In this document: one piece after another, positions 21,048-40,031 of the stretch
How the letters are laid out: each line of letters opens with the position of its first letter
Numbering within the stretch: the stretch's first letter is position 1
Assembly: GCA_947564305.1 (NCBI GenBank)
Contig: CANOBT010000006.1
Location: forward strand, 12,185-76,184
Direction: 5' to 3'
Origin: an uncultured Lachnospiraceae bacterium
GTDB lineage: Bacteria; Bacillota_A; Clostridia; Lachnospirales; Lachnospiraceae
DNA length: 64,000 nt
Notes under the pieces: model-generated
Seen by the model: only the letters and a program-made list of their open reading frames with translations
Databases searched by the model: none
Told to the model about the DNA's origin: nothing
Made by a program: the position numbers and the translations under genes

Positions 21048-24000
21048 TCACCCGATTTTCCTCCTGGCCGCTGCAAAAAGCACTCCAAAGGACAGCACCA
21101 ACAGGATGAGTGCCGGGAGAATCCCCAGCGTATCTCCTGTCTTCACCGTTTTTACTGGTTTCTCATTTCCATTGCCGATATTTACAACGGTATCTTCTTT
21201 CTCCGGCTCTTCCTCCTCCGGTTCATGAAATCTTACAGTCTGCTCCTCATAGTTGATATCCTTATGAACTGCCACCTCTTCACCGTCCTGAGTCACACTC
21301 TCATAAGCCACGGCTGTTTTTCCGGCCAGCGCAGATGCATCAAATTCAAAGGTCACATCCACAGTTCCGGACTCTTCCTGCGGCGTAAATGTCGTCTTTG
21401 CGGTAATTTCTTTTCCGTCCTGCAGAAGCGGTGCTTCCGTCTCCTTATCCATTAGAATCCCTTCCACCGTATACTCCTGTCCGGCAGTCAGATTGGAATA
21501 AAATACCGAGTCCACTATCACCGTATCATCCTGTGCATTGGCATCCCGGCTATTTGTTTTGACGTCCTTGGCTATAGTACGAACCATTGGAAAATACACG
21601 GTCTGATCCTCATCCTGAATATCTGCATGGACAGCGTAAGTTTTGCCGTTTCTTTCCAGTCTTTCATAGGCAACCACTGTCTTTCCTTCCAGCAGAGAGC
21701 CGTCAAATGTAAAGAGCACCTCCACTTTCCCATTCTTTTCCCTGGGAACAAACTTGGTCTCAGAAGTCACATCCTGCCCCGCCGCGTCTTTTACGATTTG
21801 TTCCGTCTCCTTATCCATCAATTTCCCAATCAATGTATATTCCTGTCCGACCTTTAGATTCTCATAAGACACGGTATCCACAATCGAAACCTCTTCCTCC
21901 GCCACAATCGAATTCATCCCCGACTTTGCATCCCCTGCCTTTGTCCCAATCTTTGGGAAATGGATGGTCTGTTCTTCATCTTCTATATCCTTGTGCTCCG
22001 CAATCTTTTCTGCCTTGCTGTATAATTCCTCGAAAATGACCACATCCGAACCGCCAAGGCCGGACGCATCAAACGAGCACTCAATCTCCGCGATTCCGGC
22101 GGTTGCAGCTGCGGTAAATTTCTTTTCCGCAGTCACTTTGTTTCCTTCCTCGTCCACAATCTGTTCTCCGGTAGATTTATTCACTGGTATACATTTCAGC
22201 AAATATTCCTCTTTTTCCTTTAAGCCGCTGTAAATCACAGTATCCACGATTGTCACATCTCCGGCAGCCCCATAGTGGTCTCCCGTAGCCACATTTCTTG
22301 CACTCGTAGAGATTGCAGGGGTACCTTCCTCTGGTCCTTTATTTTCCAGATTTCCCAGATTCACGATGGCACGGTCCTTATAAATAACGAACGTCGTTTT
22401 CAACATAATCTTGCCTTCATTGGCATCCCCTGGAATCTCCTCCAACTCATAGGTATCATAGGGAAGCGCCCCCAGATTATCATTAACCGATGCCTGGTTT
22501 GCAAGTTTATCGGCTCCGAACCACAATCCGTCCTCTTTTCCGCCCTGATTGGTATTATGAGAATGCTTATTCCAGTCAGTCACAGAACAATAATAGCCAT
22601 TTTCATCTGTCGTGATCAAATGAGACTCTCCGGTAGTCACGCTTGTCACTTTAAACTGCACGCCCCGCATCACATCCTGTGTCTCCGAGTCAATCTTCCG
22701 TAATTCAAAATCACCTCGTTTCACCTGATTCTCGATGGAATTCTCTTCCTCTGTCAGTTCCACCATTTCTCCGTCTTTTGTAATCATAAACTCCCTGCAC
22801 AGCACGCCTTCTTCCAGATATCCTTCCGGTGCGCCGGTCTCAATAATCCGGTATTTTCCAAATGGAAGCAGATTATTTTCCGTCTGTGCAATTCCAAGAA
22901 GATTCGAGCGTATGCTCGCCACCTCTTCATTTCTTCCATAGGATTTTCCATCCACAAGCACCGCATTCTCATTCAAATTTACGATAGTAAATACCGTATT
23001 TTCAAAGCTTGCACCACCAAGAGGCCCGCATGCCTTAGTCTCAAAATCCCGCTTCCGAATCCTCACACCGCCGCGAATGACTTTGTCATAGATGGTATAT
23101 TTATTTCCCCCAATCAAAGAAACCTTATTTCCCTGCTCCCGAATTTGAGAAATATACGGGCCGGTGATTTTCTCTTCGTTTCCGCCCGCCTGCAGGTATG
23201 CGCCCTCCAGCAAATACCCGTCAGGCGCTTTTGTCTCCTCAATCGCAATTGTTCCCAAAGGCAGCACCACTTTTCCGTCAGACATGTAAAATTCATCTCC
23301 TGATACCTTATGCCTTTCATCCAATAAAGCACGGTATCTCAAAGGTCCTCCTTCAGGGTCCACCATGTCTTTCGTCTCCAACACCCAGGTTCTAGCAGGT
23401 GCCGCCGGTAAAGTATTGTTCTCGTAATACCCTTGATAATATTTCACCGTAAACTGTGCGCCGGCAAACGAGGCATTCCCTTGGTGTGTGACTGTTTCCG
23501 TCTCCTGATCCTTCTTCGTTATTTCCAACTCTGCCGGCACTGATTCCGGCACATCACTGACCTTCACCAGAGTCTCCGCCCCTGCATTAACATGGACAGG
23601 ATAAATAGTAGAATTCCTGCGATACGCTTTCGGCGCCTTGATTTCTTTCACCCAGTAATCCCCTTCCGTCAATTCCACGGAATCACTTTCTCCCGTCTCA
23701 TTCGTGACAAATGAGCTCACCTGCTGGGTACAGGCGGCGTCTACATAAATCCCGTATTCCGCTCCGCCTAAAGAATAGCAGGAATTCCCGTCCGTCACAG
23801 AAGGATTGGCGGAACTTTTATACAACCTTGCTCTCCCATCGATGGGTCCGGAATATTCCAGCCACACGATGTCCTGCCTGTCATTATACGCCACATAAAC
23901 CGTATACTCCTGGAAAATCGCAGTCTGGGACTTTCCACTGTTCATCTGCTCCTCAAGAGCGGTCCGCATAGCCGTAATCTGCTGATTTGTAAGCCCGTTC

Positions 24001-24773
24001 GTCTCTCCCGTATACTCGACCCCAATCATGGCATGTACATAAGGGTATGGGTCAGCCACACCCCCGAACAAGGCAGAAGCCTCTTTTGCCCACGGTCCGT
24101 CCGCACCAAACATCAGCGCCATCTTAATCCGATCATTGTCTAACCGAGATACCTGATAGTGTCCGGATGGGGTCTGTTTATTCGGCTGAGCACAATATCC
24201 CATGTAATTTCCCTTATCTGTCAAGACATAGAATTCATTGGTGACCCAGCTCCCGTAATTATGCTGCGTCCCCGGCGTAATCGTACAGTCCGAACCCACC
24301 GTAGAAAAGAGCATGATTCCATCCTCACTCATGACATACGCGGTCCCATAATCTCCGACAGCATACCTTCTGCCAATTGGCGGACTATCTGGCGTTTGAG
24401 TCTCCTCTTTTTCCTCCGAATCCTGCCCGGAAGTGTCACCCACTGTTGTATCCTCCGAATAAAAATAAATATTGTTCCCGTTGTTTTCTTCCTCCTTTTC
24501 TGTCTGCTTCTGAGACGTTTCCTGCTGCGCCCCATCCGCTGCTTCTTCGCCTTGCAGCTCTGTATTCTGCATCTCTTCGTTTTGATGTGTTGGGCTTTGC
24601 TGCATTCCGTTGTGTGTATTTTTTCCTTCTGTTATATTTTCTACTGCCTGCTCCTCCATCTGCTCCTCCGCCCGCACGGAAACAGCACTTGCCGTCACCA
24701 TACAGCTAAAAATCAGTAGAAACGCAACCGCTGTGCGTAATGCCTCTGTCACACGTTTTCCTCTTCGCTCCAT
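21048..24773 (-). CDS. VaFE-repeat / Cna B-type surface adhesin
   Basis: A 1241-residue exported protein: signal peptide (1-35), Glu/Gln-rich spacer, thioester-type (TQXA) domain with Cys in MGYCAQPN (about 195), several Cna B/SpaA-like domains (about 330-800; pilin-type Lys/Glu motifs such as GYLLEG, GYLEEG), three VaFE repeats of about 120 residues (about 817-1190; VDTVxYxxL and VAYE motifs), then a membrane segment and positive tail. The segment before the membrane span reads VKTVKTGDTLG, not LPxTG or NPKTG, so the sortase signal is unusual. The thioester Gln position reads VHAMIGVEY. It should be a cell-wall-anchored adhesin or pilin; no sortase is in the window. GGAGG lies 9 bases before the ATG. 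Confidence 0.9.
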   Translation of the reverse strand: MERRGKRVTEALRTAVAFLLIFSCMVTASAVSVRAEEQMEEQAVENITEGKNTHNGMQQSPTHQNEEMQNTELQGEEAADGAQQETSQKQTEKEEENNGNNIYFYSEDTTVGDTSGQDSEEKEETQTPDSPPIGRRYAVGDYGTAYVMSEDGIMLFSTVGSDCTITPGTQHNYGSWVTNEFYVLTDKGNYMGYCAQPNKQTPSGHYQVSRLDNDRIKMALMFGADGPWAKEASALFGGVADPYPYVHAMIGVEYTGETNGLTNQQITAMRTALEEQMNSGKSQTAIFQEYTVYVAYNDRQDIVWLEYSGPIDGRARLYKSSANPSVTDGNSCYSLGGAEYGIYVDAACTQQVSSFVTNETGESDSVELTEGDYWVKEIKAPKAYRRNSTIYPVHVNAGAETLVKVSDVPESVPAELEITKKDQETETVTHQGNASFAGAQFTVKYYQGYYENNTLPAAPARTWVLETKDMVDPEGGPLRYRALLDERHKVSGDEFYMSDGKVVLPLGTIAIEETKAPDGYLLEGAYLQAGGNEEKITGPYISQIREQGNKVSLIGGNKYTIYDKVIRGGVRIRKRDFETKACGPLGGASFENTVFTIVNLNENAVLVDGKSYGRNEEVASIRSNLLGIAQTENNLLPFGKYRIIETGAPEGYLEEGVLCREFMITKDGEMVELTEEENSIENQVKRGDFELRKIDSETQDVMRGVQFKVTSVTTGESHLITTDENGYYCSVTDWNKHSHNTNQGGKEDGLWFGADKLANQASVNDNLGALPYDTYELEEIPGDANEGKIMLKTTFVIYKDRAIVNLGNLENKGPEEGTPAISTSARNVATGDHYGAAGDVTIVDTVIYSGLKEKEEYLLKCIPVNKSTGEQIVDEEGNKVTAEKKFTAAATAGIAEIECSFDASGLGGSDVVIFEELYSKAEKIAEHKDIEDEEQTIHFPKIGTKAGDAKSGMNSIVAEEEVSIVDTVSYENLKVGQEYTLIGKLMDKETEQIVKDAAGQDVTSETKFVPREKNGKVEVLFTFDGSLLEGKTVVAYERLERNGKTYAVHADIQDEDQTVYFPMVRTIAKDVKTNSRDANAQDDTVIVDSVFYSNLTAGQEYTVEGILMDKETEAPLLQDGKEITAKTTFTPQEESGTVDVTFEFDASALAGKTAVAYESVTQDGEEVAVHKDINYEEQTVRFHEPEEEEPEKEDTVVNIGNGNEKPVKTVKTGDTLGILPALILLVLSFGVLFAAARRKIG

Positions 24774-25261: not shown

Positions 25262-25735
25262 ATGAATACAAAAGAACCCAGATTTCACGGAGAGGTATCT
25301 GCCAAAAGCCATGCTAACATGAGCAAGATAAAAGGGAAAGATACTAGTATTGAAATCGCTTTGAGGAAAGCGCTTTGGTCAAGAGGATATAAGTATCGTA
25401 AAAACTATAAAGCGGTCCCTGGCAGTCCGGATATCGCACTGACAAAATATAAAATAGCTATTTTTTGTGACAGTGAATTTTTCCATGGAAAAGATTGGGA
25501 AGTATTAAAGCCACGGCTAGAAAAAGGAAAAAATCCCAATTACTGGATAAGAAAAATCCAACGAAATATGGAGCGTGACCGCGAAAAGGACCAGAAGCTC
25601 CTCTTTGAAGGATGGACCGTTATCCATTTTTGGGGTAAAGATATTATAAAAAATACGGATGAATGCGTAAATGTAATAGAAGAAACAATTTTTGACCTCA
25701 CGGTAGGAGACGGAGAAAATGAGCTATTTTATTGA
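25262..25735 (+). CDS. Very short patch repair (Vsr-like) endonuclease
   Basis: The 157-residue protein has the Vsr family start (FHGEVSAKSHANMSKIKGKDTSIE), the catalytic-region GSPDIALTKYKIAIF and the end GWTVIHFWGKDI. Vsr nicks beside T:G mismatches that arise when 5-methylcytosine deaminates, protecting sites of a cytosine methyltransferase, which fits the fused methyltransferase in this operon. The segment after the catalytic Asp reads CDSEFFHGKDW where classical Vsr has HGCFWHRH, so some zinc-site residues known from E. coli appear absent; this variant may be a sub-family. AGAGGA lies 8 bases before the ATG. It overlaps the next gene by 17 bases. Confidence 0.85.
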   Translation: MNTKEPRFHGEVSAKSHANMSKIKGKDTSIEIALRKALWSRGYKYRKNYKAVPGSPDIALTKYKIAIFCDSEFFHGKDWEVLKPRLEKGKNPNYWIRKIQRNMERDREKDQKLLFEGWTVIHFWGKDIIKNTDECVNVIEETIFDLTVGDGENELFY

Positions 25736-27158
25736 ATATGACAAAACTAATCCTGTTTCAATTGAAAACTATTCTCAGAAGATGATAGGTAAGACATTCC
25801 GCCAGATTTATGAAGAGGATAAAATAGACACTCATCCAATGATGATACACGAAACACATACCTACGGCGTTTCTGATGTTTCTAAAACCAAAAGGAATAA
25901 AGGAAATTTAGGCCAAATTATTGAAGAATGTTTTTTTCATTATGCCTGCAACAGTCATTCAGAGCCAGATTTTCCCGAAGCCGGAGTTGAATTAAAAGTC
26001 ACACCATATAAGATAAATCTGAATGGAACTTTATCGGCAAAAGAACGCTTGATACTCACAATGATAGATTATTTTAAAGTAGTTGATGAAGAATTTAAAA
26101 CAAGCCATTTTTGGAATAAATCACAGCTGATTTTGCTTGTTTACTATCTTTATCAAAAGGATATCAAGTATAATCTTGACTATAGGATAGACTATTCCAG
26201 ATTGTTTACCCCGCCTGAACAAGATGTAAAAATCATCCGCCATGATTATGACCTTATCATCAAAAAAATAAAAGCCGGAAAAGCACATGAGCTGTCAGAG
26301 GGAGATACGCTTTATCTTAGCGCCGCACCTAAAGCAGCAACCTCAAAGGACCGGCGCAGGCAGCCATTTAGCAATGAACCTGCAAAGCCTCGAGCTTTTG
26401 CTTTTAAAGCTTCTTATATGACTTATGTGTTAAACAATTATATTGTTCCTGGTAAAAAAACATATGAACCAATCATCACCACAGAGATAACCGATTCATT
26501 CGAAGACTATGTTGTTGAAAAAATCAATGCTTATAAAAACCATACCATAAATACCCTTTGCAGGGAATTTCATGTTGATCATCCAAATGGAATTAAAAAT
26601 CTGGGAGCACTATTAGTATATCGCATCTTAGGAATCCGTGGAAATCATGCAGAAGAATTTGTCAAAGCCAATATCGTGGTTAAAACAATCCGAATTGGAA
26701 AAAATAATAAAATCAAAGAAAGTATGTCATTCCCAACATTTAAGTTTAAAGAGTTAACAGCAGAAAACTGGGAAGATTCAACATTCGGTAATTATTTGAG
26801 AGAAACGAGATTTCTGTTTGTGGTATATAAATTTGATGCAGAAAATGAATTACGCTTAAAAGGATGTCAATTCTGGAATATCCCATATGAAGACTTAGAA
26901 GGAAATGTCAAAAAGGTCTGGAAAGAAACACAACAAATATTAAGGGAAGGATTATACATCGAAGTGAGAAATGGCATAATGTACAATAATTTTCCAAAAG
27001 CTTCTGACAACCCGATATGCCACGTAAGACCGCATGCCCGAAATTCCAGAGATACTTATGAACTTCCAGATGGCAGGCTCTATCCCAAGCAATGTTTCTG
27101 GCTAAATAACAGCTATATTTTAAGTCAGTTAAATGAAGATTTCCTTAAAAATCCGTAA
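25719..27158 (+). CDS. Sau3AI-like type II restriction endonuclease (MutH-like, two domains)
   Basis: The 479-residue protein matches the Sau3AI family: an N-terminal MutH-like nuclease domain (about 20-210) and a C-terminal MutH-like domain (about 255-470) thought to bind DNA without cutting. The N-terminal active site shows GQIIEE (E69/E70) and D84, E91, K93 in DFPEAGVELKV, the D-x6-E-x-K spacing of MutH. TSHFWNK and the VYYLYQ strand are further family marks. Relatives cut GATC and are blocked by cytosine methylation, so GATC is the expected target; this is not proven here. GGAGACGGAGAAAATG provides the ribosome site inside vsr. The next gene carries a diverged copy of the same fold. Confidence 0.88.
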   Translation: MSYFIEYDKTNPVSIENYSQKMIGKTFRQIYEEDKIDTHPMMIHETHTYGVSDVSKTKRNKGNLGQIIEECFFHYACNSHSEPDFPEAGVELKVTPYKINLNGTLSAKERLILTMIDYFKVVDEEFKTSHFWNKSQLILLVYYLYQKDIKYNLDYRIDYSRLFTPPEQDVKIIRHDYDLIIKKIKAGKAHELSEGDTLYLSAAPKAATSKDRRRQPFSNEPAKPRAFAFKASYMTYVLNNYIVPGKKTYEPIITTEITDSFEDYVVEKINAYKNHTINTLCREFHVDHPNGIKNLGALLVYRILGIRGNHAEEFVKANIVVKTIRIGKNNKIKESMSFPTFKFKELTAENWEDSTFGNYLRETRFLFVVYKFDAENELRLKGCQFWNIPYEDLEGNVKKVWKETQQILREGLYIEVRNGIMYNNFPKASDNPICHVRPHARNSRDTYELPDGRLYPKQCFWLNNSYILSQLNEDFLKNP

Positions 27159-27208
27159 AAACAAAAAAGAGACTTTACAAAAGAACTGAAATAACGTAAT
27201 ATATACAA

Positions 27209-27220
27209 GAACGATCGTTC
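27209..27220. promoter_or_regulatory. Perfect palindrome with GATC before the methyltransferase
   Basis: GAACGATCGTTC is a perfect 12-base palindrome 28 bases before the GTG start of the fusion gene, in the only real gap (90 bases) of the operon. It contains GATC, the predicted restriction/methylation site, so its methylation state or binding by the methyltransferase could tune expression. This is inference. Confidence 0.5.
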
Positions 27221-27248
27221 GACTATAAAACTGATGGGGTGTTATACA

Positions 27249-30245
27249 GTGAAAAAAACCGTATGTGAACTATTTGCAGGTGTAGGCGGCTTTCGATGCG
27301 GGCTCAACAACATCAACACTTTGGAAGATATGAAGAAAGTTGAAAAGTGGGATACCGTATGGTTCAGCCAATGGGAACCTGCCGAAAAGAATACACAATA
27401 TGCTCATGACTGCTATGTATACCATTTTGGTACCTGTCTGGATAAAAATGGCATGGATACGACCAATTACAACATAGAAGATGTCGATAAAAAGACGCTC
27501 CCTGACTTCAATCTCCTTGTTGCCGGTTTTCCATGCCAAGATTATTCTGTGGCCTCCTCCCTTGCCACATCAAAAGGGTTGGAAGGCCAAAAAGGTATTT
27601 TATGGTGGTCCATCAGGGAAACAATTGAAGAAAAAAAACCGCCATTTGTATTATTAGAAAATGTAGACCGTCTGATAAAGTCACCCGCGAAACAGCGCGG
27701 ACGGGATTTTGGCATTATCCTTGCATGCTTTAGAGATGAAGGATATACGGTAGAGTGGCGTATTATTAATGCTGCTGAATACGGGTTTCAGCAGCGGAGA
27801 AGAAGGACTTTTATCTTTGCTTATAAAAACAGTACAAACTATCATAATGAACTCCAACAGAAAGCAGGCTACAGCAGGGATTCCAGTGTTGAAGATAAAA
27901 GAATAAGCATAGGGAATGTATTAATGAGAGATGGTTTTTTTGCTGAAACATTCCCGGTATATGAATCCGACACAAAAAAAATGCTGATTCAAGAACTTCC
28001 CAAAGAGCTGGGAGAACTTTCTAACTCCTTTCAATGCAATTTCCAAAATACCGGCATTATGAAAGACGGCATCATTTTCACCCTGAAGACAATGCCCAAA
28101 TGCGATATACCACCGGTAACGCTTGGCGATATTATGGAAACAAAAGATGTGGAAGAACAATATTTTATACCTTTAGAGAAGCTTTACTATACAGAACATG
28201 ATATAACGCATAGTGATGAGACACACGAAAGGTTACCAAAAGAAAGCCGCCAGACCTGGCAGTATCTCAAAGGAGCAAAAAAATTGCCCCGGAAGGCTGC
28301 TAATGGACATGAGTATATCTTTTCAGAGGGTGCGATTCCTATGATTGACAGGTATGACAAGCCCGCACGGACTATGCTGACCTCAGAAGGAAATTTCAGT
28401 CGTACTACACACATCGTAAAAGATAAAAAAACAGGCAGAATCCGATTACTGACCGCACAAGAAACAGAAAGAATCCAAGGTTTTCCGACCGATCACACAA
28501 AAAATTGTTTAGTCAATGGAAGAGTTGAAGAAATGCCGCTCAACAAACGAAGATTTATGATGGGCAATGCATTAGTTGTTAATCTGGTAAAACAGATGGA
28601 AGTGACTCTTTCAGAAATTTTTGAAAAAGAAGATAATGCAGGAAAAGTAATGCTGCTCCCTGCTAATAACCAATCAGATAAGACAGGGGCAAGAGCACAA
28701 TCTCATATTTATAAAAAATCAGATTTAATCCGCCGTTTGAATGCCTATTTAAATAAACCATTAGGAGAAATAGATAATAAAGGACTGTTTTCCAAAATCC
28801 GGAAATTCAAGTCTCAAAAAGGAATAGCAGGGGCAATTGTTGAACAATGTATTTTAGGATATTCCCCGGATAATAAACAAGAGGCAGATTTGATTATAAT
28901 TGATGGTCAAAAAGAAATCAGAACAGAGCTAAAGACGATTGGCATGACGATAAAGTCAGATCCATCAGAACATTTTACTGCAAAAGAACCCATGTCAATT
29001 ACAGCCGTTGGTATTTATGATATTGCAAATCAGCAGTTTTGGACATCGCATTTCTGGGAAAAGCTTGAACATATGCTGATTGTTTACTACTATTATAAAT
29101 CTGACCATACTGTTCCATCATATGAATATCGTCTGTTTCCATTAAAAGGATATGAATTTCATGAGTTTACAGACAGCGAAACAAATACCCTGAAACGAGA
29201 CTGGGAACATGTTCAGCAATTATGTACTGAGATAACTTCCAAATATCCTAATCCTGGAACAAAAGAATGGAAAACTGCTGTACAGCAAGAGTATATAAAT
29301 ATTCACGGCCGGTTAAGACGGCTGCTGAGTTACATAGATTTAGCTCCCAAGTTCCCGCCCAGGTTCCGTTTAAAGAAACCTATGGTCTCAGCTATTATAG
29401 CTAAGCATTTTGGATACCGTCTTGAACAGCTACCGGAAGAATATCTGGAAATATCCGATGTTGATAAAAAATGCCATGAACTCACAAACCTTTATTCTGG
29501 GCAAACGATAGAACAGCTCTCGAAACAGTTCCATGTCCCTCTCCTCTCAAAAAAGGGAACGCCTAATAAATCAATTGCGGAAAGTATAATTGTAGCAATG
29601 TTTGGAGGGACATCAAAAAAACTAAATCAGGTAGAATTGTTTGATAAGTTTGGCCTTCTTGCCAAAACAGTGATACTGTCATCCAACGGCGGACATACAG
29701 AAGATATGAAACTATTCCACATTGATTTCCATGAAGTTACGCGCACAGAAGTTATGGATGAAGATGGAACCGAGAGAGAATATATATTCGAAGACTCCGA
29801 ATTATATTCTTATTTTATAGACCACGAATTTTTGTGTATTGTTTTTGAAGAACCCGTCCCAGATTCTACAACCCATACAGACATACCGCTTTCCGTAAAT
29901 AAGTTTATTGGATTTAAACGTTTGATATTTAGCGACTCATTTATAAATGAAACCGTGAGAAAACTCTGGACAGATATACGATACAAGGTCATAGGGAACC
30001 ATCTTGTAGATATTATCCAAAAACGGAAAGATGGAACTACGATCATAAATAAAAACGGAGAGCCCAGTTCTTCGCCTAACTTTTTAAAGTCCAGTGAGAA
30101 CGATGTGTTTGTACGTGGATCCGGCAGAGACGCATCAATGAAATATAAAACAGAATGTGTTAACGGTATTCAGATGCTTCCGCAGTATGTGTGGCTCAAG
30201 GGGTCATCAATCGTTGATGAATTAGATACTGTTCCTATGCTTTAA
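27249..30245 (+). CDS. DNA cytosine-5 methyltransferase fused to a Sau3AI-like endonuclease
   Basis: A 998-residue fusion. Residues 1-450 form a C5-cytosine methyltransferase: ELFAGVGGF (motif I), GFPCQDYS with catalytic Cys near 96 (IV), ENV at 137-139 (VI), QQRRRRTF (VIII), RLLTAQETERIQGFP (IX) and MMGNALVVNLV (X). From about 485 a second Sau3AI-like nuclease begins: AGAIVEQC (about 530), then D552, E560, K562 in IDGQKEIRTELKTIG, TSHFWEK and VYYYYK as in the free-standing enzyme, and a second MutH-like half from about 755 (TIEQLSKQFHV) ending in LPQYVWLKGSSIVDEL. The D-to-E spacing is one residue longer than in MutH. GTG was chosen as start because GGGGTG lies 7 bases upstream. One protein could modify and cleave the same sequence. 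Confidence 0.85.
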   Translation: MKKTVCELFAGVGGFRCGLNNINTLEDMKKVEKWDTVWFSQWEPAEKNTQYAHDCYVYHFGTCLDKNGMDTTNYNIEDVDKKTLPDFNLLVAGFPCQDYSVASSLATSKGLEGQKGILWWSIRETIEEKKPPFVLLENVDRLIKSPAKQRGRDFGIILACFRDEGYTVEWRIINAAEYGFQQRRRRTFIFAYKNSTNYHNELQQKAGYSRDSSVEDKRISIGNVLMRDGFFAETFPVYESDTKKMLIQELPKELGELSNSFQCNFQNTGIMKDGIIFTLKTMPKCDIPPVTLGDIMETKDVEEQYFIPLEKLYYTEHDITHSDETHERLPKESRQTWQYLKGAKKLPRKAANGHEYIFSEGAIPMIDRYDKPARTMLTSEGNFSRTTHIVKDKKTGRIRLLTAQETERIQGFPTDHTKNCLVNGRVEEMPLNKRRFMMGNALVVNLVKQMEVTLSEIFEKEDNAGKVMLLPANNQSDKTGARAQSHIYKKSDLIRRLNAYLNKPLGEIDNKGLFSKIRKFKSQKGIAGAIVEQCILGYSPDNKQEADLIIIDGQKEIRTELKTIGMTIKSDPSEHFTAKEPMSITAVGIYDIANQQFWTSHFWEKLEHMLIVYYYYKSDHTVPSYEYRLFPLKGYEFHEFTDSETNTLKRDWEHVQQLCTEITSKYPNPGTKEWKTAVQQEYINIHGRLRRLLSYIDLAPKFPPRFRLKKPMVSAIIAKHFGYRLEQLPEEYLEISDVDKKCHELTNLYSGQTIEQLSKQFHVPLLSKKGTPNKSIAESIIVAMFGGTSKKLNQVELFDKFGLLAKTVILSSNGGHTEDMKLFHIDFHEVTRTEVMDEDGTEREYIFEDSELYSYFIDHEFLCIVFEEPVPDSTTHTDIPLSVNKFIGFKRLIFSDSFINETVRKLWTDIRYKVIGNHLVDIIQKRKDGTTIINKNGEPSSSPNFLKSSENDVFVRGSGRDASMKYKTECVNGIQMLPQYVWLKGSSIVDELDTVPML

Positions 30246-38006: not shown

Positions 38007-39110
38007 TTAATTTGCATTGTGAATATCTTCCTCGCTGTAATATCCACTGTCAATTACAAGTTCTTTGTAGTTATCCTTATCCAGTGACAATGGTTCGCAT
38101 AGATAAGAGGGCACGACCATTTTTCCATTGTCATAAGTCTCCGTGTCATTGACCTCCGGCTCGCTGCCGTTCATAACCGCCTCAATCATTCCGGAACACT
38201 TCTCGGCAAGAAGCTCCGTATTTTTGAAAATTGTTGCCGTCTGCTTACCCTCAATGATGTTCTTGACAGCCATGACTTCCGCATCCTGTCCTGTGATGAT
38301 AGGCCAATCTTCCTCCGTATATCCGGCTGCCTCCAATGCTGCCTTGATACCGTAGGCAAATCCGTCAAATGCAGAACAGCAGATATCCAGTTTTTCGTTG
38401 GCATAGAATCCTGATAAATAATTTTCGCAGTTTTGCAGCGCTACCTCCTGGGACCACCTTAAAATACAGGTGTCTTCAAAGGAAGTCCTCCCCGATTTGC
38501 ACACTAATGTGCCGTCATCCAGATATTTCTGCAATACGCTCATCACACCTTTATAGAGAAGAACCGCATTGTTGTCATCCGGTGAACCCATGAAAAACTC
38601 GATTGTCTGCGGCTCTGTGGCCTCCTTGAGATTCGCTTTTTCTTCGATATACTCCCCAATTTTCCTGCCCACTCCCTCGTTGTCAAAGGATGCGTAATAA
38701 CTGACTGCATCGGTATTCATTAACAAACGGTCATAGGAAATAACAGGAATCCCCACATCCTTGGCAGTCTGCAGCGCATTGATCAATGCGGAGGAGTCCA
38801 CCGCTGCAACGACCAGGCAGTCTACATCTTTGGCAATCATTGTCTCAATCTGCGCAAGCTGAACTTGTACATCATCCTCCGCATATTGAAGAAATACATC
38901 ATACCCAAGTTCCTCCAACCGTGCTTTCATGTTACGGCCATCTTTAATCCACCTTTCTGAGCTTTGCGTTGGCATGGCCACGCCAACTGTTTTCCCGTTG
39001 CTGCCTTGTTTTTCCCCACCGTCACCTGAGCTGTCGCTTCCACATCCTGTAAATGCGAGAGAAAGTGTCATGACTGCCATGAGAGCTACGCTGAGAATCC
39101 TTTTCTTCAT
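38007..39110 (-). CDS. chvE: Monosaccharide-binding lipoprotein (ChvE-like)
   Basis: The 367-residue substrate-binding protein has a lipoprotein signal with lipobox LAFTGC, then a Peripla_BP_4 fold beginning KTVGVAMPTQSSERWIKDGRN, with LQYAEDDVQVQLAQIE and ISYDRLLMNTDAVSYY as typical ChvE/XylF segments. It captures sugar at the outer membrane face of the cell and delivers it to MmsAB. The start MKKRIL was chosen because AGGAGG lies 9 bases upstream. First gene of the operon. Confidence 0.92.
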   Translation of the reverse strand: MKKRILSVALMAVMTLSLAFTGCGSDSSGDGGEKQGSNGKTVGVAMPTQSSERWIKDGRNMKARLEELGYDVFLQYAEDDVQVQLAQIETMIAKDVDCLVVAAVDSSALINALQTAKDVGIPVISYDRLLMNTDAVSYYASFDNEGVGRKIGEYIEEKANLKEATEPQTIEFFMGSPDDNNAVLLYKGVMSVLQKYLDDGTLVCKSGRTSFEDTCILRWSQEVALQNCENYLSGFYANEKLDICCSAFDGFAYGIKAALEAAGYTEEDWPIITGQDAEVMAVKNIIEGKQTATIFKNTELLAEKCSGMIEAVMNGSEPEVNDTETYDNGKMVVPSYLCEPLSLDKDNYKELVIDSGYYSEEDIHNAN

Positions 39111-39157
39111 GCTTTCTACCTCCTTTTTCCTTTCAAGCATCTATATTTTATAGTTAT

Positions 39158-39186
39158 ATTGTACTGTACAAGTTTAACTTTTTCAA
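39158..39186 (-). promoter_or_regulatory. Sigma-A promoter of the chvE operon
   Basis: On the minus strand TTGAAA (39181-39186) and TACAAT (39158-39163) are spaced by 17 bases, about 48 bases before the start codon. A palindromic operator overlaps the -10 hexamer, the classical layout for repression. Confidence 0.8.
39159..39171. promoter_or_regulatory. AraR-like operator overlapping the -10
   Basis: TTGTAC-T-GTACAA is a perfect inverted repeat close to the known AraR consensus of Bacillus (TTGTACGTACAA). It is the likely target of the GntR/LacI-type regulator at 33786-34922. Confidence 0.65.
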
Positions 39187-39255
39187 GACGGAATATATCA
39201 CAATTTTAAATACAACTTTTTGTGCATGTTTCAATTTTAATCGTATTTTATCCTG

Positions 39256-39275
39256 TAGTTGTATATGTACAACTA
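39256..39275. promoter_or_regulatory. Second operator-like palindrome upstream of chvE
   Basis: TAGTTGTA-TATG-TACAACTA is a perfect inverted repeat of 8-base arms about 70 bases upstream of the -35. The TTGTA/TACAA core is shared with the first operator, suggesting cooperative binding and DNA looping. Confidence 0.55.
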
Positions 39276-39578
39276 TACATTATTACAATATTCTATTTTT
39301 ATCTCTTATAACAGTATTGTGCCATACAAATTTCATTTTCTCAAAACGAAACGCAACTCATATATTGAAATCCAATATTGTTTTATCGTTTTTCGATAAT
39401 TTTATATTGATTTTCATCTCACACAATGTTATAATTCCAAAAAAGATGGGCTGGCAATGAAAGCATACGTGAAAGTATTGAACATAGTTTCATATAGACA
39501 ACGACAAATTATTTTGTTCTTTGCTGCAAAAGCGCTTCTGCAACATCCGGCTCCGCATCATCCAGGAGGTCATATCAT

Positions 39579-40031
39579 ATGCACGGTGAAAAACTGATTC
39601 AGGTAACGAAGATTCTGTTAGATATCATGTTTTATAGTGGAATTTTAGTCATTGTAACACTTCCGATATCTCTAAGATACGCAGGCATTTATTATTCCAG
39701 TGCCTTTCAGGAATATTATGTACTGATGCTCATCATATTTTTCTTATCCGGGATATGCGGACTTTGGATTGTAGGTCAATTGAGAAAAATGATGCGCACG
39801 GTGATACAAAAGAACTGTTTTGTTTATGAAAATGTGAGAAGCCTGAAGATGATGGGCATTGCCAGTGCACTCATCACAATACTGTTTTTTATAAAATGTT
39901 TTTATCTTCCCACTCCGGCAACATTTATCATCGTACTCACCTTTTTTATAGCCGGGCTGTTCAGCGAAGTCTTGTCTTTCGTATTTGCCGAAGCCATCCG
40001 TTATAAAGAGGAAAATGATTTAACAATATAG
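39579..40031 (+). CDS. DUF2975 family membrane protein
   Basis: The 150-residue protein has four predicted membrane segments (about 12-32, 45-65, 92-112, 117-138) and the family pattern with FVYENVRSLKMMG between spans 2 and 3. DUF2975 proteins are nearly always encoded next to a small YozG-type HTH gene, as here (13-base gap). Function is unknown. AGGAGG is 9 bases before the ATG. Confidence 0.85.
   Translation: MHGEKLIQVTKILLDIMFYSGILVIVTLPISLRYAGIYYSSAFQEYYVLMLIIFFLSGICGLWIVGQLRKMMRTVIQKNCFVYENVRSLKMMGIASALITILFFIKCFYLPTPATFIIVLTFFIAGLFSEVLSFVFAEAIRYKEENDLTI

Follow-up and report, generated by a model that had tools for sequence, protein, structure and literature searches.

We examined a 64,000-nucleotide stretch of a contig from an uncultured Lachnospiraceae bacterium (assembly GCA_947564305.1, contig CANOBT010000006.1, positions 12,185 to 76,184; hereafter, the window) and focused on a restriction-modification (R-M) locus within it. 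Open reading frame (ORF) calls place three close-set genes on the + strand amid genes of the - strand: a Vsr-like mismatch endonuclease, a free Sau3AI-family type II restriction endonuclease (R1), and a cytosine-5 (C5) methylase fused to a second nuclease of the MutH/Sau3AI fold (R2). A first-pass annotation, made from the bare sequence, had described an AT-rich three-gene block with two such nucleases, one of them fused to its methylase, plus Vsr. This description is borne out by ORFs of 157, 479, and 1003 residues, all on the + strand, with family matches far beyond chance. Pfam, NCBIfam, and PADLOC concur on a Vsr protein, a MutH/Sau3AI-type nuclease, and a C5 methylase joined to a further MutH/Sau3AI-type nuclease.

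The Vsr gene (25262..25735) matches PF03852 at 84.9 bits (cut-off, 27; E value, 3.4e-24) and passes TIGR00632 at 119 bits (cut-off, 97.85), and its final 17 nucleotides overlap the R1 gene (25719..27158, + strand). R1 passes the Sau3AI equivalog model NF040973 with 562.5 bits against a cut-off of 300, and it matches the Sau3AI crystal chain 4pxg (E value, 2.8e-77) and the MutH family PF02976 (E value, 5.2e-40). Its catalytic residues are D84, E91, and K93, which the first-pass annotation had numbered correctly by motif position. This PD..ExK triad is kept in 24 of the 25 aligned R1 sequences, the remaining one being a fragment with gaps.

The third gene (27234..30245, + strand) encodes the 1003-residue fusion, as indicated by Pfam, NCBIfam, PADLOC, and a structure model. 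Residues 1-471 (27234..28646) constitute a C5-cytosine methylase with a target-recognition region and the PCQ (Cys101), ENV (from 142), and QRR (from 187) motifs; they match PF00145 over residues 10-455 (181.3 bits; E value, 4.3e-53) and the PADLOC model PDLC03329 over residues 7-465 (473.5 bits). A linker, residues 472-489 (28647..28700), has a predicted local distance difference test (pLDDT) score below 50 and is probably disordered. R2 occupies residues 490-1003 (28701..30242), with catalytic D552, E565, and K567, and matches PF02976 (E value, 2.7e-15) and the PADLOC REase_II model PDLC03570 (342.3 bits, residues 490-997). The model of the whole fusion (mean pLDDT, 87.4; predicted template modeling score [pTM], 0.55) shows two separately folded parts. 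The R2 structure matches both full-length Sau3AI and MutH, as the first-pass annotation had anticipated for this C terminus, and its Sau3AI-like architecture is complete, including the C-terminal domain. Residue numbers proposed earlier for the fusion ran five short for the PCQ cysteine, the ENV motif, and the ExK residues (given as 560 and 562), while D552 was right in the true numbering: it is the conserved PD aspartate, found in 77 of 79 aligned R2 sequences, whereas position 557 is an aspartate in only 16 of the 79. The complete R2 triad is likewise kept in 77 of 79, and the other two are partial sequences with gaps there. R1 and R2 share about 30% identity, and the retention of the triad in the sequences that cover it led us to reject the idea that either is a degenerate partner.

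The R-M segment has a guanine-plus-cytosine (GC) fraction of 0.34-0.41 in 1-kb steps, compared with 0.46-0.51 in the adjoining flanks. Low GC is not confined to this segment, however, as it also reaches 0.354 at 39000-39999 of the window. We then compared the site with the ten nearest relatives, taken as the closest by ArgH among 299 searched. In five of them (L173, L174, L175, L176, and L178), leuC adjoins asd with no R-M genes between; in the other five, leuC was not found within the fetched stretch. Between leuC and asd in the window lie a 1241-residue surface-type protein and the R-M genes. The arrangement in these five relatives supports calling the R-M genes an island. In one relative, G007, leuC and asd are on contig C15 and R2 is paired with a methylase on contig C3, a placement consistent with mobility of the R-M genes. 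The 1241-residue gene (21048-24773), judged by eye to encode a surface protein from its repeats and membrane-anchor-like tail, was not found at this site in the five relatives with leuC next to asd.

Scanning genome contigs for R2 recovered 75 loci. A methylase scoring above 150 bits against that of the window lies within 4 kb of R2 in 70 of them, R1 adjoins R2 in four (L011, L018, L035, and L061), and R2 is fused to the methylase in three (L011, L012, and L018) and a separate gene in the remaining 72. These counts indicate that R2 and a methylase usually form a system of their own. The three-gene architecture is not unique to the window: L011 has the same order of Vsr, R1, and methylase-R2 fusion, and L121 has the same parts in a different order. 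Genes for HNH endonucleases adjoin R2 in a Bifidobacterium thermophilum locus (L122:9451-10323) and on an Aerococcus plasmid (L087:7527-8360). Stand-alone R2 homologs amount to 399 proteins at an E value of 1e-5 or below; the best 120 all carry PF02976 and none carries PF00145, and the remainder may include R1-type proteins. R2 has matches in two phage records: a full-length one at 34% (E value, 6e-77) and a partial one at 22%. In viral contigs, the R2 alignment produced 37 pattern matches, and tblastn recognized none of them as a relative.

Whole-genome searches separate the two nuclease types further. R1 matched eight of 391 genomes of one class at an E value of 1e-20 and ten of 397 genomes of one family at 1e-60, and R2 matched four of the same 397 at 1e-60; longer stretches around the R1 matches were fetched and annotated. 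With R1 as the query against ten genomes, G006, G007, and G009 match only at their R2 gene and G008 has no match; with the R2 profile, likewise against ten, G212, G423, G595, G723, and G447 match only weakly, at their R1-type genes. Eight genomes show only one of the two nuclease types. G001 and G002 possess both, at separate loci, which shows how two systems could merge.

We evaluated the pairing of methylases with nucleases on a tree of 89 methylases, obtained from 98 candidates by dropping nine: six duplicates of loci already represented, L028 (which has no nuclease inside 4 kb), and the pair L125 and L126, removed as short loci although L126 is complete. The window methylase falls in a 14-member clade with support of 100/100. 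Its members neighbor R1 only in six cases (L103, L104, L105, L110, L111, and L112), R2 only in five (L001, L015, L016, L020, and L034), and both in three (the window, L113, and L121). The three states are interleaved within the clade and require six changes; over the whole tree, the joint presence of R1 and R2 requires five, with L059 counted as R2 only. The putative R1 of L059 (33 bits) is a 737-residue ORF with no Pfam, PADLOC, or NCBIfam match at the limits set, and we treated it as not R1. The closest swap is between L105, with two R1-type nucleases, and L034, with R2 only, whose methylases are 85% identical overall and 94% identical over residues 335-400. A recognition-region block (YLKGAKK and GHEYIFSEG in the window) is largely kept in 21 aligned methylases with either neighbor.

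Several loci of this clade carry additional genes. L105 (6624-9565; G423, contig C1) combines one methylase and Vsr with a tandem pair of Sau3AI-type nucleases (NF040973 scores, 579.7 and 498.1 bits). In L111 (7927-8667; G001, contig C34), R1 and the methylase flank a BglII-like gene (PF09195, 35.1 bits; cut-off, 26), which adds a third kind of nuclease to those next to methylases of this clade. ORFs with no Pfam match occur inside the R-M loci L103 (7880-8881), L121 (3252-3992), and L110 (8065-9198). By eye, the L103 and L121 ORFs resemble each other; the L110 ORF matches NucS weakly (E value, 3.2e-4), below the cut-off.

The fusion itself is a recurrent state. L015 has the methylase nearest to that of the window; there, a stop codon closes the methylase gene close to the linker position, and R2 begins as a separate gene just downstream. 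We constructed an R2 tree of 80 sequences by a quick method, with SH-aLRT (approximate likelihood-ratio) support only and three R2 pieces shorter than 380 residues left out. Its eight fused members need seven changes, all forced by starred branches, so the fusion arose, or was lost, repeatedly. Fusions also appear among the best 120 of 4714 methylase relatives, scored within the 7991 candidates sharing most words. At least eight of these 120, counting the window fusion and the incomplete P0022, join the methylase to a part of the R2 type, and at least ten join it to one of the R1 type. The R1-type set includes four near-copies; in P0229 the methylase is incomplete, and P0148 has only part of R1. 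Other architectures in the same set include at least two fusions to Vsr, which may stand on either side (P0212 and P0219), and a fusion whose C-terminal part is helicase-like by eye (P0161). In P0145, P0146, P0147, P0149, and others listed, the methylase match is split at a PF14890 or PF14528 domain, which we take to be of the intein type.

We consider it probable that the locus is a type II R-M island in which one C5 methylase accompanies two nucleases that act independently of each other on a common site, which is most likely GATC. Host GATC would be marked as GAT-m5C by the methylase half of the fusion, which probably also serves the free R1; R1 and the tethered R2, both of the MutH/Sau3AI fold, would cut unmarked DNA, and Vsr would repair the T:G mismatches left by methylcytosine deamination. 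R2 may have arrived as an ordinary separate gene beside the methylase, with loss of the intervening stop codon producing the fusion, as in several other lineages, and R1 probably came in from a sister system having the same methylase. A second nuclease could tolerate phage DNA modifications differently or strengthen the addiction effect, and fusion could fix a 1:1 ratio and delay cutting until R2 meets its partner.

One of the two options raised in the first-pass annotation was a heteromer in which R1 and the fused R2 each cut one strand or read one half-site. The window encodes both in one operon, the two are adjacent in four of the 75 R2 loci, and two-gene Type IIT enzymes are known, as noted in a review (PMC12707154). 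However, R1 without R2 and R2 without R1 stand beside closely related methylases of one lineage, which also occurs with both, and eight genomes have a single type. In addition, the catalytic triad is intact in both nucleases, with gaps in the few remaining aligned sequences, and a lone C5 methylase fits a palindromic site. This indirect evidence leads us to reject the heteromer as a requirement, and as an explanation of the locus it is extremely unlikely. Because relatives carry either nuclease alone, R1 and R2 look like interchangeable cutters rather than halves of one enzyme, and if methylases of one lineage guard their hosts against either, both would be blocked by the same mark. That the two sites differ, with the methylase protecting one while the other nuclease decays or is guarded by an unseen methylase, would fit the low identity of R1 and R2 and the failure of R2 to reach the Sau3AI equivalog cut-off. 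It is nonetheless very improbable, given that both keep their catalytic residues and that each is elsewhere the sole one of the two types beside the window's methylase clade.

The other early suggestion, that the fusion is a self-regulating enzyme switching between marking and cutting in the manner of Type IIC/IIG enzymes, draws on the repeated occurrence of both activities in one chain. The same review proposes a methylating, non-cutting monomer stage for such chains (PMC12707154), and an engineered R-M fusion of Eco29kI is described as functional (PMC3039593). On the other hand, R2 retains a complete Sau3AI-like architecture with its C-terminal domain, and 72 of the 75 loci encode it on its own. 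The model places two separately folded parts on the linker and gives no hint of an interlock; the low confidence of the linker and the whole-model pTM mean that no fixed interface is predicted. We regard such a switch as unlikely and retain two independent nucleases under one mark as the preferred reading.

We infer GATC as the most likely site of the methylase, R1, and R2 from sequence relationships. R1 exceeds the Sau3AI equivalog cut-off, and Sau3AI-like systems of Listeria are reported to act on GATC in dependence on cytosine methylation (PMC10059834). The nuclease gene flanked by R1 and the methylase in L111 is BglII-like, and the BglII site, AGATCT, contains GATC. In the window minus the operon, GATC is the lowest of the 256 tetramers, with an observed/expected ratio of 0.40. 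GATT/AATC is raised to 1.31, as expected from loss of methylated C by deamination, although a depleted tetramer raises its neighbors by construction and ACGA/TCGT is higher still at 1.45.

Several observations weigh against the preferred reading of the locus. R2 scores 132.7 bits against NF040973, below the cut-off of 300, so its site follows only through the shared methylase. Median GATC ratios in carriers and non-carriers are 0.58 (n = 17) and 0.76 (n = 14), which is not a significant depletion (one-sided p, 0.10); four of 21 carrier and five of 19 non-carrier stretches were dropped as short under differing limits (6 and 10 kb), and some carriers belong to other families. Among the ten nearest relatives, the ratios are, nearest first, 0.80 (G605), 0.70 (G543), 0.68 (G500), 0.43 (G435), 1.07 (G533), 0.38 (G007), 0.72 (G573), 0.56 (G433), 0.34 (G424), and 1.08 (G535). 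Only G007 has R2 with a window-type methylase, yet G435 and G424, among the nine without them, are also low. For a protist mitochondrial MutH-type nuclease and C5 methylase predicted to be GATC specific, neither methylation nor toxicity could be detected (PMC8099122), indicating that GATC predictions of this kind can fail. Finally, many of the genomes are draft assemblies, and L103 and L112 are close to the ends of their contigs, so an apparently absent gene may reflect an assembly gap.

A broader and more doubtful possibility is that loci with GATC C5 methylases are hubs that gather nucleases of distant kinship or none, each recognizing a site with GATC in it, because one mark would protect against them all. 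Candidates would be the Sau3AI-type R1, R2, the two R1-type nucleases of L105, the BglII-like protein of L111, and perhaps the unclassified ORFs of L103, L110, and L121. If hubs exist, stacking would widen the range of phage DNA modifications still cut, and fusion of nuclease to methylase would fix the order of marking and cutting.

Known Sau3AI systems comprise one separate nuclease and one methylase. SsuDAT1I of Streptococcus suis is a GATC system with two isoschizomeric nucleases, but it differs from the window in having DpnII/MboI-type nucleases, adenine methylases, and no known fusion. The stand-alone PADLOC type REase_II (PDLC03570) is matched by the window R2 over nearly its full length, whereas here R2 is the C-terminal half of a methylase protein with R1 adjoining. 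The Listeria systems, as described (PMC10059834), have a single separate nuclease and a methylase, in contrast to the two nucleases, one fused, of the window. Type IIC enzymes are described in a review as having mostly N-terminal nucleases with gamma-class methylases, with BtgZI named as one exception (PMC4081073). The fusion resembles them in combining nuclease and methylase domains in one polypeptide and differs in that an N-terminal C5 methylase precedes a MutH/Sau3AI nuclease.

The Eco29kI methylase belongs to the C5 class. RM.Eco29kI, which joins this methylase to its own nuclease, is the nearest experimental model found; it was made by replacing overlapping stop and start codons (PMC3039593). 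According to the abstract, the enzyme cut preferentially and modified little in vitro, with "10^2-fold less protection" in vivo, while a results passage gives 10^2-fold protection on induction (PMC3039593). RM.Eco29kI is engineered, with R before M and a GIY-YIG nuclease, while the window fusion is natural, with M before R and a MutH fold. The same text includes Sau3A with the head-to-tail systems that might have natural fused counterparts, and the natural, recurrent C5-methylase/nuclease fusions reported here are of the kind it foresaw in 2011 (PMC3039593). Closely related methylases paired with either of two nuclease families, or with both, add a natural experiment. Together, they make two questions directly testable: how a host profits when two nucleases share a site, and whether tethering the nuclease to its methylase keeps DNA from being cut before it is marked. 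The architecture is not described among the literature matches listed, from a search largely without subscription journals; text from PMC12898733 and PMC5608340 had no bearing on it. The locus is most likely a GATC system with one methylase, two nucleases, and a natural C5-methylase/nuclease fusion, assembled from known parts.

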